Part shown: one piece after another, positions 3,464 to 54,463 of the stretch
How positions within the stretch are numbered: the stretch's first letter is position 1
Layout: the number at the start of each line of letters is the position of its first letter
Source: Alphaproteobacteria bacterium
GTDB lineage: Bacteria; Pseudomonadota; Alphaproteobacteria; Sphingomonadales; Sphingomonadaceae
Direction of reading: 5' to 3'
Assembly (NCBI GenBank): GCA_019232625.1
Contig: JAFANP010000041.1
Span: 1-55,904, forward strand
DNA length: 55,904 nt
Position numbers and translations under genes: made by a program
Notes under the pieces: model-generated
Databases searched by the model: none
What the model was told of the DNA's origin: nothing
Seen by the model: only the letters and a program-made list of their open reading frames with translations

Positions 3464-6010
3464 ATGGCCAGGCGACCTTCCCGCCCGGGCCTTCCGACCC
3501 GCGAGCAGATACTCGACTTCATCGCCTCGTCGGACCAGCCCGCCGGCAAGCGCGAGATCGGCCGCGCGTTCGGCCTTTCCGGGCAGGACAAGATCGCGCT
3601 CAAGAGCCTGCTGCGCGACATGGCCGACGAGGGGCTGATCGAGGGCGCCCCCGGCCGGGCCTTTCACCAGGCGGGCGGCGTCCCAAAGGTGACCGTGCTG
3701 CGAGTCACGGATGTCGATGAGGAGGGGACGGCGTGGGCCGTACCGGAGCGCTGGGAATCGCAGGCTCCCGAGCCGCGCCTCCGCGTCCTCGAACGGAAGG
3801 GCAGGGGCTCCGCCCTTGCCGTCGGCGACCGCATCCTCGCCCGCACGGAGCAGCGGGGGAAGGGCTATGCCGCGCACCCGATGAAGAAGCTGATGAAGGG
3901 CAGCGAGCTCGTCCTCGGCGTCGTCCACCAGGAAGCGCACGGCTTCTGGCTCCGCCCGGTCGAGAAGAAGGAGCGGCGCGAGCTGCCCATCTCCGACGTC
4001 GGGCCCGCCGAGGCGGGCGACCTCGTCCTGGCGGAGAAGGTCGGCAGGCCGCCGCGCCTCAGCGCGCGGGTCTCCGAAGTGCTCGGCGACCCGTTCGCGC
4101 CCCGCAGCTTCAGCCTCATCGCCATTCACAAGCACGGAATCCCCCACGAGTTTCCCGAAACGGTGCTCGCCGAGGCGGAGCGCGTCGCCGCGCAGCCGCT
4201 GGAATCGGCCTCCTCCGCTCGCCCCGAGCCTCTCGAAGGACTCCCTTCTCCTTCCGGGCGGGGAAAAGGGGAGGGAAGGGCTTCGACAAGCTCAGCCCGG
4301 GAAACCGGACGACGGGAGGATTTGACCCACATCCCGATCGTCGCCATCGATCCCGCCGACGCCCGCGACCATGACGACGCGGTCTGGGCGGCGGCGGACG
4401 AGGATCCGTCCAACGCCGGCGGCTGGCGCGCCATCGTCGCCATCGCCGACGTGAGCTTCTACGTCCGCCCCGGCTCCGCGCTCGACAAGGAGGCGCGCAA
4501 GCGCGGCAACAGCGTCTACTTCCCGGACCGGGTGGTGCCGATGCTGCCCGAGACGCTCAGCGCGGACGTCTGCTCGCTGAAGGAGGGGGAGGACCGCGCC
4601 GCACTCGTCTGCCACCTCCAAGTGACGAAGGACGGGCAGCTCAAGTCCTGGCGGTTCAGCCGCGCCCGAGTCCGCATCGCCGCCAATATCGCCTATGAGG
4701 ACGCGCAGGCGGCGATCGACGCGGCGGAATTCCTCCCCGAAGCGGGGAGGGGGACCAGCGAAGCTGGTGGAGGGGCTGGCACGCAGGCCGAGGCGGCCCC
4801 TCCACCACCCGCTGGCGCGGGCGGTCCCCCTCCCGGTTCCGGGGCGGAGCGTGTCAAGGTCTATTCCTCGCCCTGCACGATGCCGGAGATCGAGGCGGAC
4901 GACCCGCCCGTCCCTCCCGAGCTGGTGGAAACCACCCTCAAGCCCCTCTGGGCCTGCTGGCAGGCCCTCTACCGGGCCCGGGAGAAGAGGGCGCCGCTGG
5001 AGCTGGACCTTCCCGAACGGCAGGTGGTGCTCGACGAGAAGGGCCGCATCGCTTCCGTTGCGCCGCGCGAGCGGCTCGACGCGCACAAGCTGATCGAGGA
5101 TTATATGATCGCCGCCAACGTCGCCGCGGCCAAGGCGCTGGAGGCGAAGAAGGCGCCGGTCATGTACCGCGACCACGAGCCGCCGGGCCGCGAGAAGCTG
5201 GTCGCGCTGAAGGATTATCTCGCTACCTTCGGGCTGGAATTCGCCCTCGGCCAGGTGGTGCGGCCGGGGACCTTCAACCGCATCATCGACCGGCTCGGCG
5301 ACGAGGACTACCGGCCGCAGGTCATGGAGCAGATCCTGCGGACCCAGACGCAGGCTTATTACGCGCCGCGCAATGCCGGCCATTTCGGCCTCGCCCTCGG
5401 TTCCTACGCGCATTTCACCAGCCCGATCCGTCGCTATGCCGATCTCATCGTCCATCGTTCCCTAGTCCGCGCCTACGGGCTCGGGGAGGGCGGCCTCAGC
5501 GACACCGAGAGCGAGGCGATGGAGGTGACGGGCGAGCTCATCTCGCAGCTCGAGCGGCGCGCCATGGAGGCGGAGCGGGAGACGCTCGACCGCTATGTCG
5601 CGGCCTATCTTTCCGAGCGGGTGGGGGACCTGGTCGACTGCCGGATCACGGGCGTCCAGCCGTTCGGCTTCTTCGCCACCGTTGAAGGGCTGGGCGGCGA
5701 CGGCCTGGTGCCCGTCTCCACCCTGGGAACCGAATATTTCCGCTACGAGGAGGCGAGCCAGAGCCTCGTCGGGGAAGAGAGCGGGGAGCGCTTCACGCCC
5801 GGCCGCCGGCTCAAGCTCAGGCTGGTCGAGGCCAACCCGGTCTCCGGCGGCCTCCGGTTCGAGCTGGCGGATGCGCAGGGGGGCGCTCCTCCGGCTCGCC
5901 GTCCGGCCCGCCGCGACGGCCGTCGCGGCGCGGACGGCGGCGGAGGCGGCGCGCCGCGCCAGGGCCGCCGCGGCCGCCCCGCCAACATTCGCCACCAGGG
6001 ACGACGGTGA
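3464..6010 (+). CDS. rnr: Ribonuclease R with two in-frame repeat insertions
   Basis: An 848-residue 3'-to-5' exoribonuclease of the RNB family that degrades structured RNA in the cytosol. Domains in order: N-terminal winged helix (about 10-65), cold-shock/OB region (about 75-230), RNB catalytic domain starting near 287 with the metal-binding Asp cluster DPADARDHDD, the conserved SPIRRYADLIVHR near the end of RNB, an S1 domain (about 705-800) and a basic Gly/Arg tail. Two stretches do not belong to the family: residues about 249-282 (SARPEPLEG...STSSARE) and about 423-460 (LPEAGRGTSEAGGG...PPPPAGAGG). Both are translated palindromic repeats lying at domain junctions or loops, and the frame is intact. 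The ATG is 2 bases after the upstream gene, so the two are probably cotranscribed. Confidence 0.95.
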   Translation: MARRPSRPGLPTREQILDFIASSDQPAGKREIGRAFGLSGQDKIALKSLLRDMADEGLIEGAPGRAFHQAGGVPKVTVLRVTDVDEEGTAWAVPERWESQAPEPRLRVLERKGRGSALAVGDRILARTEQRGKGYAAHPMKKLMKGSELVLGVVHQEAHGFWLRPVEKKERRELPISDVGPAEAGDLVLAEKVGRPPRLSARVSEVLGDPFAPRSFSLIAIHKHGIPHEFPETVLAEAERVAAQPLESASSARPEPLEGLPSPSGRGKGEGRASTSSARETGRREDLTHIPIVAIDPADARDHDDAVWAAADEDPSNAGGWRAIVAIADVSFYVRPGSALDKEARKRGNSVYFPDRVVPMLPETLSADVCSLKEGEDRAALVCHLQVTKDGQLKSWRFSRARVRIAANIAYEDAQAAIDAAEFLPEAGRGTSEAGGGAGTQAEAAPPPPAGAGGPPPGSGAERVKVYSSPCTMPEIEADDPPVPPELVETTLKPLWACWQALYRAREKRAPLELDLPERQVVLDEKGRIASVAPRERLDAHKLIEDYMIAANVAAAKALEAKKAPVMYRDHEPPGREKLVALKDYLATFGLEFALGQVVRPGTFNRIIDRLGDEDYRPQVMEQILRTQTQAYYAPRNAGHFGLALGSYAHFTSPIRRYADLIVHRSLVRAYGLGEGGLSDTESEAMEVTGELISQLERRAMEAERETLDRYVAAYLSERVGDLVDCRITGVQPFGFFATVEGLGGDGLVPVSTLGTEYFRYEEASQSLVGEESGERFTPGRRLKLRLVEANPVSGGLRFELADAQGGAPPARRPARRDGRRGADGGGGGAPRQGRRGRPANIRHQGRR
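4214..4303. repeat. GAGCCTCTCGAAGG/CTTCGACAAGCTCAG palindromic element inside rnr
   Basis: A roughly 90-bp palindrome-like element lying in frame in rnr between the OB region and the RNB domain. The left arm carries GAGCCTCTCGAAGG and the right arm GGCTTCGACAAGCTCAG, with an inner CCTTCTCC/GGGGAGGGAAGG stem. Similar arms occur near 42160-42255. It encodes a low-complexity linker. Confidence 0.75.
4731..4843. repeat. CCCTCC-type palindromic repeat (family B) inside rnr
   Basis: A copy of the 817-926 repeat placed in frame within the rnr RNB domain. Arms are TCCTCCCCGAAGCGGGGAGG and GGTCCCCCTCCCGGTTCCGG, with the inner pair GGTGGAGGGGCTGG and GCCCCTCCACCACC. It encodes a Gly/Ala/Pro-rich loop and contains no stop in the rnr frame. 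Confidence 0.8.
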
Positions 6011-11472: not shown

Positions 11473-11636
11473 CTAGAGCATTGAGGAATTAGGTTGACGC
11501 ACTGCTTCCGCTCATCCTGAGGAGCCGGTGAGCTTGTCGAACCGGGGTCTCGAAGGACGGTCCTTCGACACGGGCCTTCGCCAAGCTCAGTCCCTACTCA
11601 GGATGAGCGGGTCAACCTGAACCCAGCTTACTCTAG
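11473..11636. repeat. Long palindromic repeat, family A, copy 1
   Basis: About 164 bp bounded by CTAGAG and CTCTAG. Inside are AGGTTGACGC / GGTCAACCT arms, then CGCTCATCCTGA / TCAGGATGAGCG, then TGAGCTTGTCGAA / CTTCGCCAAGCTCA, and a central TCGAAGGACGGTCCTTCGA. It lies between convergent genes, and the right CTCTAG contributes the stop codon of the leftward gene at 11633. Copies: 39093-39239 and 46513-46660. Confidence 0.9.
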
Positions 11637-23650: not shown

Positions 23651-24172
23651 CTAGAGCTTGCGCAGCAGGGTGATCTTGGCCTTGCCGTGGATGCGCGTCG
23701 CCTCCTCTTCGAACCCCTCCGCTCCGATCGTCTCGTCGCGTGCCGTCTCGACGCTGGCGAGCCCGCCCGGAGCGAGCGGCAGGCGGGCGAGGGCGGCGGG
23801 GGCGAGGCCGCTGCGATAGGGCGGGTCGAGGAAGGCGAGGTGGAGCTCGCCGGCGATCCGGGCATGCTCGGCCGGGGTGGCGAGGATATCGGCTTCGGCG
23901 CCCAGCGCGGCCACGTTGCGGCGGATCGCCTCGACGGCGGCCCGCTCCTTCTCGACGAAGGTGCAATGCGCCGCGCCCCTCGACAGCGCCTCGAGGCCGA
24001 GCGCGCCGGAGCCGGCGAAGAGGTCGGCGACCCGCAGCCCCTCGAAGCTGCCGAGCCGGCTCGCCAGCATCGAGAAGAGCGCCTCGCGTGTGCGGTCGGA
24101 GGTGGGGCGGGTGGCCTGGCCGGCCGGGGCGACGATCGGCCGCCCGCGCCAGCGGCCGGAGATGATCCTCAC
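23651..24172 (-). CDS. rsmD: 16S rRNA guanine(966)-N2-methyltransferase
   Basis: A 173-residue SAM-dependent methyltransferase that modifies G966 of 16S rRNA. The start RIISGRWRGRPIVAP is the family signature, followed by TRPTSDRTREALFSML, SAM motif I VADLFAGSGALGLEALSRG and the catalytic motif IV FLDPPYRSG. The GTG at 24172 overlaps the rluB stop by 4 bases (GTGA), so translation is coupled to rluB even though a repeat forms the end of rluB. Confidence 0.93.
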   Translation of the reverse strand: MRIISGRWRGRPIVAPAGQATRPTSDRTREALFSMLASRLGSFEGLRVADLFAGSGALGLEALSRGAAHCTFVEKERAAVEAIRRNVAALGAEADILATPAEHARIAGELHLAFLDPPYRSGLAPAALARLPLAPGGLASVETARDETIGAEGFEEEATRIHGKAKITLLRKL

Positions 24173-25227
24173 TTCCTCGATCCTCCCCGGGACGGGGAGG
24201 GGGACCGCGCGGAGCGCGGTGGAGGGGGCCCGTCGCTCCGCGGCTTCGGCGCTGGGGCCCCTCCACCACCCTTCGGGTGGTCCCCCTCCCCGCGAAAGCG
24301 CGGGGAGGGACTTCCTTTGAGCCCCTTGCGGAACGCCACCAGGTCGTGCTGCCTCACCTCGTCGACCGCGCCGCCGGGCAGGTCGGCGAGGACGAAAGGC
24401 CCGTAGGCGACGCGGATAAGGCGAGAGACCTGGAGGCCGAGATGCTCGAGCACGCGCCGCACCTCGCGATTCTTGCCCTCGGTGAGGCGCATCTCGATCC
24501 ACGCGTTGCGGCCGGTGCGGCGCTCCAGGTTCGCGTCGATCGGGCCGTAGCGTATGCCGTCTATCTCGATCCCCTGGATGAGGGCTTCGAGCCGCTCCTG
24601 GCTGATCTCGCCGAAGGCGCGGGCGCGGTAGGTGCGCTCGACGCCGGACGAGGGGAGCTCGAGCTGGCGCTTTAGCTCGCCGTCGGTGGTGAGGAGCAGC
24701 AGGCCCTCGGTGTTGAGGTCGAGCCGGCCGACCGGCATCACCCTCGGCAGGCCCTTGGGCAGGCGGTCGTAGATGGTCGGCCGCCCCTTCGGGTCGCGCT
24801 CGGTGGTGAGCAGCCCGGCGGGCTTGTGGTAGCGGAACAGCCGTGCCGGGGCCGGGGCCTTGACCGGCACGCCGTCGACGGTGACGCCGTGGAGCGAGGT
24901 GAGCAGGGTCGCAGGCGTTTCGACGGCGACGCCGCCGATCGCGATCCGCCGCTCCTCGATCATCCGCTCGATCTCGCGGCGCGACGCGATGCCGGCGCGG
25001 GCGAGCAGCTTGGCGATGCGCTGGCCGTCCTTGGGGCCATCCTTGGGGCCGTCCCTGGCCCCGTCCCGGGGCGCGCGTGCGGGGCCGTTCCTGGGGCCGT
25101 GCTTGGGGAAATTGGGCGGGGGCAGGGGGCGTTCTCCAGTCGTCGCCGCCGGACGGGCGGAATTTTGCGCCCAGCCGAGGATATGGCCGGGGCCCGGCGG
25201 CCCCCGTCGCTCGTTACGCTTCGACAA
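24169..25227 (-). CDS. rluB: rRNA pseudouridine synthase RluB/RsuA family, with repeat-derived C-terminus
   Basis: A 352-residue RsuA/RluB-type pseudouridine synthase modifying rRNA. A low-complexity N-terminal tail (HGPRNGPARAPRD, GPKDGPKDGQR) precedes an S4 domain (RIAKLLARAGIASRREIERMI). The catalytic Asp is in VGRLDLNTEGLLLL; LTEGKNREVRRVLEHLGL is the family's late motif. The expected end is near VAFRKGLK; the last 45 residues or so (SPSPRFRGEGDHPKGGGG...SPSPSRGGSRK) are translated family B repeat. The TTG at 25227 is the only start that keeps the tail and is uncertain. Stop overlaps rsmD. Confidence 0.9.
   Translation of the reverse strand: MSKRNERRGPPGPGHILGWAQNSARPAATTGERPLPPPNFPKHGPRNGPARAPRDGARDGPKDGPKDGQRIAKLLARAGIASRREIERMIEERRIAIGGVAVETPATLLTSLHGVTVDGVPVKAPAPARLFRYHKPAGLLTTERDPKGRPTIYDRLPKGLPRVMPVGRLDLNTEGLLLLTTDGELKRQLELPSSGVERTYRARAFGEISQERLEALIQGIEIDGIRYGPIDANLERRTGRNAWIEMRLTEGKNREVRRVLEHLGLQVSRLIRVAYGPFVLADLPGGAVDEVRQHDLVAFRKGLKGSPSPRFRGEGDHPKGGGGAPAPKPRSDGPPPPRSARSPSPSRGGSRK
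24181..24310. repeat. CCCTCC-type palindromic repeat (family B) forming the rluB 3' end
   Basis: Arms TCCTCCCCGGGACGGGGAGG and CCCCGCGAAAGCGCGGGG, inner pair GGTGGAGGGGGCC / GGGCCCCTCCACC. Related to 817-926, 4731-4843 and 54351-54463. It is read through by rluB and ends about 10 bases before the rsmD start. Confidence 0.8.
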
Positions 25228-39092: not shown

Positions 39093-39239
39093 CTAGAGCA
39101 CTGAAGAATTAGGTTGACGCCTTGCTTCCGCTCATCCTGAGTAGCCGGTGAGCCCGTCGAACCGGCGTATCGAAGGACGGTCCTTCGATACGGGACTTCG
39201 CCAGGCTCAGTCCCTACTCAGGATGAGCGGATCAACCTG
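39093..39239. repeat. Long palindromic repeat, family A, copy 2
   Basis: A 147-bp copy of 11473-11636 in the same orientation: CTAGAGCACTGAAGAATT, AGGTTGACGC, CGCTCATCCTGA, TATCGAAGGACGGTCCTTCG, TCAGGATGAGCGG, ATCAACCT. It lies between the convergent serine hydrolase and EEP genes. The right CTCTAG end is missing. Confidence 0.9.
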
Positions 39240-39336
39240 TTGAGGCTCCACATCGAGGGGGGCGGCATGTGCGGATAGTCTCGCGCGGGCGAGCCCCCTC
39301 ACCCCGCCGGGAGAGGGGGAAGGGGCGGCAAGGTGC

Positions 39337-42139: not shown

Positions 42140-42292
42140 GGACGCGATTTCCGTTCGGGCTGAGCCTGTCGAAGCCCTCCCTTCCTCTCGAAAGGCAAGA
42201 AGACGAGCCGCCTGCGGCGTCGCTCTCGACAGGCTTCGACAAGCTACGGGCGAACGGTGGAAGCGATTCAACCTGATCCCCCAACGCTCTAG
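42140..42292. repeat. Diverged palindromic element downstream of radA
   Basis: GGGCTGAGCCTGTCGAAGCC and the complement-like GGCTTCGACAAGCTACGGGC enclose a loop with AGACGAGCCGCC; the end GATTCAACCTGATCCCCCAACGCTCTAG resembles the inverted end of family A. It may be a decayed or hybrid copy of family A and the element inside rnr. Confidence 0.6.
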
Positions 42293-46512: not shown

Positions 46513-46660
46513 CCAGAGCATTGAGGAACGAGGTTGACGCACTGCTTCCGCTCATCCTGAGGAGCCGGTGAGCTTGTCGAACCGGCGTCTCGAAGGACGG
46601 TCCTTCGATACGGGACTTCGCCAGGCTCAGTCCCTACTCAGGATGAGCGGATCAACCTAA
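46513..46660. repeat. Long palindromic repeat, family A, copy 3
   Basis: Same orientation as copies 1 and 2, with about 95% identity to copy 1 by eye over the inner 130 bases. AGGTTGACGC at the left and GGATCAACCT at the right; the first bases are CCAGAG instead of CTAGAG. It lies between the convergent antiporter and aroB genes. Confidence 0.9.
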
Positions 46661-46670
46661 ACCCAGCGTG

Positions 46671-47744
46671 CTAAGGCGCCAGCTCCCCGGCCAGGAACGC
46701 CGCCACCTCCGCAAGCGCAACCGACTCGTCGACGAACGCGCCGCCGATGCCGCGGGCGAGGATGAAGGGCACGCGCCCGCCGCTCGCCTTCTTGTCCGCC
46801 GCCATGTGCCCGACCAGCCGCTCCGGCGTCCCGACCGCCAGCCGGGTCGGCAGTCCCGCCGCCGCCAGGTGCGCCTCAACCCGACGGGCGTCGCCCGGGG
46901 CGCACAGCCCCCGCGCCGCCGAGAACCGGAAGGCGAGGGTCATGCCCAGTGCGACGGCCTCGCCGTGAAGCATGGCGAAGCCGGTTTCCGCCTCGATGGC
47001 GTGGCCGAACGTGTGGCCGAGGTTGAGGAGGGCGCGCCGGCCTTTCGTCTCGCGCTCGTCCTCCCCGACGATGGCCGCCTTCATGCGCACGCACGTCTCG
47101 ATCGCGTGGAGCCGCGCCTCGACGTCGTCGCCCAGCAGCGCCGCGCCGTTCGCCTCGCACCAGGCGAAGAAGGCCGGGTCGGCGATGAGCCCGTATTTGA
47201 CCGCCTCCGCATAGCCGGCGCGCAGCTCGCGCGGCGGCAAGGTCTCAAGCACCAGCGGGTCGATGAACACCGCCGCCGGCTGGTGGAAGGCGCCGACCAG
47301 GTTCTTGCCGGCGCCCGCGTTGATCGCGGTCTTGCCGCCGACGGAGGAATCGACCTGGGCGAGGAGGGTGGTCGGCACCTGGACATAGCCGCAGCCGCGC
47401 TTGACGATCGCCGCGGCGAATCCGGCGAGGTCGCCCACCATGCCGCCGCCGAAGGCGACGATATGGTCGCCGCGCTCGACGCCGAGCGCGAGCATCCGTT
47501 CGACCAGCCGCTCGAGCTCGGCCCAGCTCTTGCTGGCCTCGCCGGGCGGGACGATCGCCGCCTCCACGCGGAACGGCCCGGCGAGGCGGGCGCCGTGCGC
47601 GGCCCAGACATTTTCGTCGCTGACGACGATGAGCCGCCCGCCGCGGGCGAACGGCGCGAGCGTCTCGCCCGCCTGCTCGAGCAGCCCCCGCTCGATCCGG
47701 ATCGTATAGGCGCGCTCGCCCAGCTTGACGTCGACGCGGCTCAC
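46671..47744 (-). CDS. aroB: 3-dehydroquinate synthase
   Basis: A 357-residue NAD- and zinc-dependent enzyme of the shikimate pathway converting DAHP to 3-dehydroquinate. NAD site [34 protein letters not shown], and zinc ligands in [22 protein letters not shown] and [14 protein letters not shown] start at 47744 overlaps the aroK stop by 4 bases (GTGA), so aroK-aroB is one unit. Confidence 0.96.
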
Positions 47745-54350: not shown

Positions 54351-54463
54351 CCTCCCCGTCCGCGAAGCGGATGGGGAGGGGGACCATGCGAAGCATGGTG
54401 GAGGGGCCTTGCACCGCGCCCAGCCCCTCCACCGGACTTCGGCGACGGGGGGGACTGCCCCTC
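54351..54463. repeat. CCCTCC-type palindromic repeat (family B) before ahcY
   Basis: CCTCCCCGTCCGCGAAGCGGATGGGGAGG at the left, then GGTGGAGGGGCC and GCCCCTCCACCGG; the right arm is less well matched. It lies 10 bases after the stop of the upstream gene and immediately before the operator-like palindrome of ahcY. Confidence 0.75.

Follow-up and report, generated by a model that had tools for sequence, protein, structure and literature searches.

Palindromic repeats that code for protein occur in Rickettsia as the Rickettsia palindromic elements (RPE) and in Wolbachia as their counterparts. Here we describe a comparable situation in rnr, the gene for RNase R, in a 55,904-nucleotide stretch of DNA (the window) from a draft genome of the Sphingomonadaceae (3.6 Mb, 66 contigs). 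The gene carries two in-frame inserts from two unrelated palindromic repeat families, which we call A and B, and one of the two insertion sites, a loop in the RNB domain, is occupied in related species by palindromes of at least five unrelated families. We consider it quite probable that dispersed palindromes insert widely in these genomes, are removed from most coding positions and persist in frame in disordered linkers.

In the main text of Di Nocera et al. 2013 (PMC3733652), in which RPEs are cited as protein-coding palindromes, repetitive extragenic palindromes (REPs) of the GTAG/CGTC type are described as mostly intergenic, with some in open reading frames, including those of S. alaskensis and E. 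litoralis, and CGTC REP families are reported in S. wittichii. A first, sequence-only reading of the window had known of no description for this group, which is not wholly accurate because intragenic CGTC REPs of sphingomonads are in print there. The same text notes that recB of two Xanthomonas species carries REPs that differ between the two at nearly the same position, and this is the nearest precedent that we met for recurrence at one site. The words 'RNase', 'ribonuclease' and 'exoribonuclease' are absent from that main text; the supplement listing intragenic REPs lay outside this search. By inspection, families A and B lack the CGTC/GTAG tag, and family D, found in relatives, starts with CGTC like the REPs (L048/L168). 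Repeats mobilised by REP-associated tyrosine transposases (RAYTs) are likewise palindromic and non-autonomous, and this genome has two RAYT-like Y1 transposase genes, although these are flanked by palindromes other than A and B.

The RPEs are dispersed palindromes lying in frame in many proteins at tolerated positions, as the rnr inserts do. The difference is that here, in a GC-rich group, a single enzyme loop has received several unrelated families. Families A and B are both dispersed palindromes that lie in frame within rnr and are missing from near relatives of that gene, and family B has entered several unrelated genes. The likeness to Rickettsia-type elements suggested by the sequence-only reading is therefore sound as to behavior, and kinship in sequence with the RPEs is not implied. 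Protein-coding palindromes and intragenic REPs were already known. A loop in one conserved enzyme that accepts at least five families across a bacterial family was not found described in print, in a literature search that left subscription papers mostly outside.

Two repeat-derived inserts in RNase R

The features of the gene are as follows.

3464..6010, plus strand: rnr, RNase R of 848 aa, with CSD2 at residues 162-231, RNB at 284-670 and S1 at 719-789
4208..4309, plus strand: site A insert, residues about 249-282, at the CSD2/RNB junction, missing in the relatives L031 and L039, with a predicted local distance difference test score (pLDDT) below 50
4215..4308, no strand: family A palindrome, decayed copy, inside the site A insert, with a half-site at 4282-4295 and a fold z score of -0.10
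4732..4848, no strand: family B palindrome, intact, residues about 424-462, in a loop within RNB (site B), with a fold z score of -6.06

The rnr product has the composition of an RNase R, with CSD2, S1 and an RNB domain retaining its aspartates. In Pfam, RNB scored 303.6 bits and CSD2 41.7 bits, and S1 was marginally below its cut-off of 22 at 21 bits. D296, D302, D304 and D305, which we take to be the catalytic aspartates, were invariant among 40 RnRs compared. The top Foldseek match of the model in the PDB was E. coli RNase R (5xgu). Sequence comparison with chain 5xgu_B places site A in the interval 172-179 and site B in the interval 304-327. The NCBIfam equivalog for RNase R, TIGR02063, has a cut-off of 597.85 that the product did not reach (571.7 bits, in three stretches), plausibly owing to the inserts. 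The AlphaFold model (40 sequences) had a mean pLDDT of 74. Both insert regions fell below 50 (residues 250-280 and 427-476), as did residues 1-5, 61-63, 641-655 and 805-848.

The sequence-only reading had placed two foreign stretches at residues about 249-282 and 423-460, at a domain junction or surface loop, and these positions were confirmed. Neither insert is present in rnr of the near relatives L031 (metagenome-assembled genome, MAG, LB5_4) and L039. The window's gene is longer than theirs by about 100 nt at site A and by 93-111 nt at site B, the latter directly after the conserved NIAYEDAQAAIDA in RNB. One insert lies at the CSD2/RNB junction and the other in a loop of RNB that is predicted to be disordered, and neither contains an in-frame stop, as had been claimed.

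Each stretch had also been read as a DNA palindrome, and this is true of site B as it stands today. The family-B element there consists of two hairpins of the form GAGGGGGACC-stem-loop-stem-GGTGGAGGGG in inverted order, with half-sites at 4747-4775 (plus) and 4797-4832 (minus), and none of 200 shuffled sequences was equally stable. At site A, 76 of 200 shuffles folded equally well, so this copy has decayed, although its arms still match family A (exact TTCGACAAGCTCAG at 4282). The rnr gene of Allosphingosinicella vermicomposti (L032, KCTC 22446) has an intact family-A palindrome at site A (z -6.08), together with a site-B palindrome different from that of the window. The centres of the two site-A palindromes differ, and L151, the sister of L032, has none. 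Site A may thus have received either one insertion common to the window's gene and A. vermicomposti or two separate ones.

Because the source genome is a draft in 66 contigs, a pseudogene, an assembly error or a wrongly called frame might be suspected. Like inserts are found in independently sequenced type strains, and all 140 RnRs that we compared have a single open frame of at least 734 aa. The ratio of nonsynonymous to synonymous substitution rates (dN/dS) of the core was 0.016-0.17 across rnr pairs differing in insert state, and 0.042 for one pair in which both genes were empty. For the window's gene against L031, L032 and L151 it was 0.12-0.17, ratios that are rough because dS was 0.85-1.0. 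The gene outside the inserts is under purifying selection, and the chance of an artefact is negligible.

Recurrence at the RNB loop across Sphingomonadaceae

We scanned 199 genomes of the family, three of which had no RnR match. The 130 rnr loci gave 102 distinct RnRs after removal of 28 duplicates, and a farther set of 40 gave 38 after removal of two. A recognised palindrome family was present at site B in 34 of the 102 and in none of the 38 more distant ones, that is, in 34/140. The carriers comprised family B (6), A/C (6), the CGTC-type D (5), E/G (15) and F (2); F was left uncounted in L046, as were spurious single F motifs in L033 and L065. Site A had a recognised palindrome in 5/140 RnRs, of family A in L001 and L032 and of family B in L033, L093 and L155. 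The suggestion of a tolerant site is supported by these varied palindromes at the same loop.

The recognised site-B inserts form very stable hairpins, with a fold z score below -3 in 30/34, compared with 3/22 unrecognised site-B segments of at least 90 nt and 0/54 windows elsewhere in rnr. RNase R is an exonuclease that degrades structured, REP-containing RNA. Such stability in the message of this enzyme could mean that the hairpins are retained to regulate rnr, for example by a substrate-like feedback. Any palindrome would then serve and the families would be interchangeable in a feedback on RNase R synthesis or decay, from which RNase R would gain. However, site B has no recognised palindrome in 68/102 RnRs and in all 38 farther ones, and copy A of the window no longer folds. 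The hairpin of L080 is less stable than those of L076 and L078, L082 is without most of its element, and presence barely follows the tree. We regard both the retention of the hairpins for regulation and the gain to RNase R from its own message as improbable.

The relation to descent was assessed on trees from FastTree and IQ-TREE quick, with the insert columns left out. On both trees alike, the state of site B required 30 changes (26 for presence only), or 26 and 23, respectively, when four weakly folding inserts were unscored. Label shuffles (200) gave a mean of 32.5 changes and a minimum of 29; the change counts are approximate because of forks with support below 80 (25 in the FastTree tree). 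The state of site B therefore hardly tracks descent, which points to fast turnover, and strict inheritance of one ancient site-B insert was rejected on these counts. Close relatives carry different families (L066 with D and L075 with E; L098 with A/C and L099 with E; L050 compared to L048 and L168) or differ in presence (L072 with B and L105 with none; L103 and L107; L032 and L151). Active spread, proposed in the sequence-only reading, is borne out by the turnover at this loop, whereas copy A of the window is old and decayed.

A loss has left a scar in L082, which is closely related to L076, L078 and L080. Its rnr is short of 81 nt (27 codons), in frame, between two copies of CCCTCCCG that are present in L076, and it retains a half-hairpin at site B. 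Judged from the sequences, the gap would most simply be a deletion between internal direct repeats.

Palindromes were concentrated in rnr and, within it, at the two sites. Across 235 kb of rnr coding sequence we counted 18 perfect inverted repeats of at least 15 bp, of which 15 were at site B, two at site A and one elsewhere (L154, 16 bp, about its own residues 679-737, chance-looking and in conserved coding sequence). At the same loci, one such repeat was inside other called genes (411 kb), two were at gene edges and 28 were intergenic (81 kb). The difference between rnr and other genes (18 vs 1) gave a Fisher p of 1.5e-7 per base, with kinship of the loci ignored. The control genes UvrD, SecA and PtsP had none in 126 kb (53/88 loci, open through the whole match), in genomes mostly picked for their rnr inserts; the RnRs of 29 control genomes had 15 in 68 kb. 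A single PtsP inverted repeat in a count by longest frame (L253) was discounted, being downstream of the PtsP match, and two UvrD control loci that had a family-B motif in the longest-frame count were not among the matched regions that were recounted.

This strong enrichment over neighbouring and control genes may alternatively reflect a preference for a DNA target, in which the mover favours the rnr site itself, for instance an existing hairpin or GCGATCGATGC just upstream, rather than tolerance. Palindromes nested in palindromes (L047, L075 and L093) would fit with this. However, the distance from the start of the loop to the first recognised hairpin varies, from about 2 to 11 codons, and this speaks for tolerance over one exact DNA target. 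The loop has also been used by at least five unrelated families, and site A, about 175 residues upstream, is in use as well, with A and B found at both. Target preference is thus unlikely, although less so than a role of the hairpins in the message. E-type elements occur at site B in all three reading frames and the first hairpin of D in one. For B at site B, the first hairpin is in one frame in 6/6, which could be due to chance, shared ancestry or a preferred peptide.

Dispersed copies and the survival of inserts in frame

The other copies reported for the window were found again, and the two families are indeed unrelated to each other.

42151..42248, no strand: family A copy, intergenic
24185..24293, no strand: family B copy, open in the frame of a pseudouridine synthase gene, in its C-terminal tail
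24169..25227, minus strand: S4/pseudouridine synthase gene, whose C-terminal codons are the family B element
54376..54406, plus strand: family B half-site, intergenic
near 813-930: family B partial copy

Both families are dispersed in the source genome. Family A has 138 half-sites with at most one mismatch, compared to 4 for the reversed pattern, part of the 138 being a distinct, longer repeat (ATCCTGAG...); a stricter pattern gave 62 and 0. Family B has 100 half-sites and none with the reversed pattern. Of the 33 family-B half-sites sampled, 28 had an 11-nt centre, and among these 12 different arm pairs occurred. Although the four bases of the inner stem vary, pairing was retained at 46/48 positions, compared to 30.8 for shuffled partners (reached in 0/5000 shuffles). 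Because this varying stem stays complementary, family B appears to be maintained as a hairpin and not as a sequence. The flanks are constant around the freely varying stem, as if the hairpin itself were copied or selected. Elements of family B also form head-to-tail arrays, four in the source genome (G000:C27:8939-9457) and more in Sphingomonas parva (G227:C103:58-1439).

Genomes with palindromes in rnr were richer in the same repeats. Half-sites of B numbered 6-105 per genome (median 64) in seven genomes with B at either rnr site and 0-69 (median 14) in 25 without (one-sided p 0.009, rnr copies counted in). Those of A/C numbered 32-78 (median 41) in seven carriers and 0-152 (median 2) in 26 non-carriers (p 0.014). 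E hairpins numbered 14-293 in each of 12 E carriers searched, with 0-1 for the reversed pattern. These numbers bear on a possible local origin of the palindromes, through template switching or inverted duplication at the site, as might be suggested by the nested 62-nt palindrome of L093, which has one copy in that genome. However, A, B and E are present at tens to hundreds in most of the genomes concerned (the lowest carrier, G201, has 6 B half-sites), and a local origin is very improbable as a general explanation.

The source of mobility was sought in the two RAYT-like Y1 transposase genes of the source genome, L172 (G000:C4:19881-20177) and L171 (G000:C38:41529-41852). Each is amid its own palindrome, GGGACACTCTGGTGACAGTCAC... 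and GGGGACAGTAACTATTTGTCCG..., respectively. Mobilisation of A or B by a flanking RAYT in this genome was therefore rejected; one family-A copy is about 2 kb from the Y1 gene on C4.

The placement of copies was examined in 852,904 sampled bases, or 24% of the genome, with a coding fraction of 0.82-0.92 by a simple codon-usage caller. The 20 family-B elements in it comprised 9 intergenic, 7 at gene edges and 4 within genes. There were 17 family-A elements, lone half-sites included, several being lone half-sites or the longer ATCCTGAG repeat, and inside genes only the rnr copy and one lone half-site with one mismatch were found. Genes are avoided by the elements relative to their share of the genome, and the survivors tend toward linkers and tails. 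Among other coding sequences, family B was found in frame inside CcmF (L134:2314-4377, minus) and, separating the two domains, in a hydantoinase A/B fusion (L136:16659-20000, minus), and a half-element in frame inside a TauE-type transporter (L146:8215-9063, plus). Family B also occupies four C-terminal tails, those of a glycosyltransferase, a DUF969 protein, the hydantoinase and the pseudouridine synthase of the window, in which it encodes residues about 314-344 of 352.

Based on these results, we suggest that sphingomonad genomes maintain several unrelated families of short palindromic repeats, apparently non-autonomous and mostly intergenic, that also enter genes, presumably by some transposition-like process. 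A copy would be purged if it caused a frameshift, introduced a stop or struck folded structure, and one landing in frame in a disordered linker would persist and add some 20-50 residues to the translated protein. RNase R would offer two such linkers, and the one after NIAYEDAQAAIDA in RNB would act as a recurrent acceptor loop, in which palindromes of at least five families have been gained, lost and gained anew in part of the Sphingomonadaceae. The inserts, probably close to neutral, would later decay or vanish by in-frame deletion between internal direct repeats.

Several points weigh against this explanation. Repeats of these families are also abundant in some non-carriers (up to 69 B and up to 152 A/C half-sites), and the genome-wide counts cover A/C, B and E. 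The repeat families were called by motifs taken from these same RnR sequences, and the 102 RnRs are mostly near kin of the insert-bearing gene, so the carrier frequency should not be read as that of the family at large (0/38 farther out). Hairpins were weak in 4/34 recognised inserts (L066, L085, L096 and L161). The alignment with related Sphingomonadales demonstrated the absence of both inserts in L031 and L039, but neither a target-site duplication nor an exact empty site could be defined for the window's inserts, because relatives are too diverged. Neither A nor B was found directly flanking the two Y1 genes in the one genome examined. The translation of the inserts and their presence in mature RNase R are presumed from the open frame. 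At site B of L093, a family-B element encloses a further palindrome of 62 nt, which bears two side hairpins and has no second copy in that genome; local formation may therefore account for some palindromes.

With many repeat families in one loop across many species, rnr provides a natural experiment on insertion tolerance in a conserved enzyme, in which palindromic repeats seem to have been gained and lost independently many times, and the loop is a natural record of their spread and tolerance. Whether repeat-derived peptides are neutral, useful or RNA-level signals becomes a testable question. Caution is also needed in annotation, in that the length and annotation scores of RNase R in sphingomonads vary for a reason of mobile DNA.

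Other repeats of the window

Rfam at gathering thresholds gave no matches in the window. A 158-nt repeat is present at 11475-11632, 39095-39252 and 46515-46672, its copies being 85-94% identical. Its core is ATCCTGAG...CTCAGGAT with TTCGACA-like arms, and it is separate from family A. The 20 largest of at least 60 families of direct repeats in the window include this repeat (D1) and one family-B pair (D17), and the remaining ones among these 20 resemble coding similarities.

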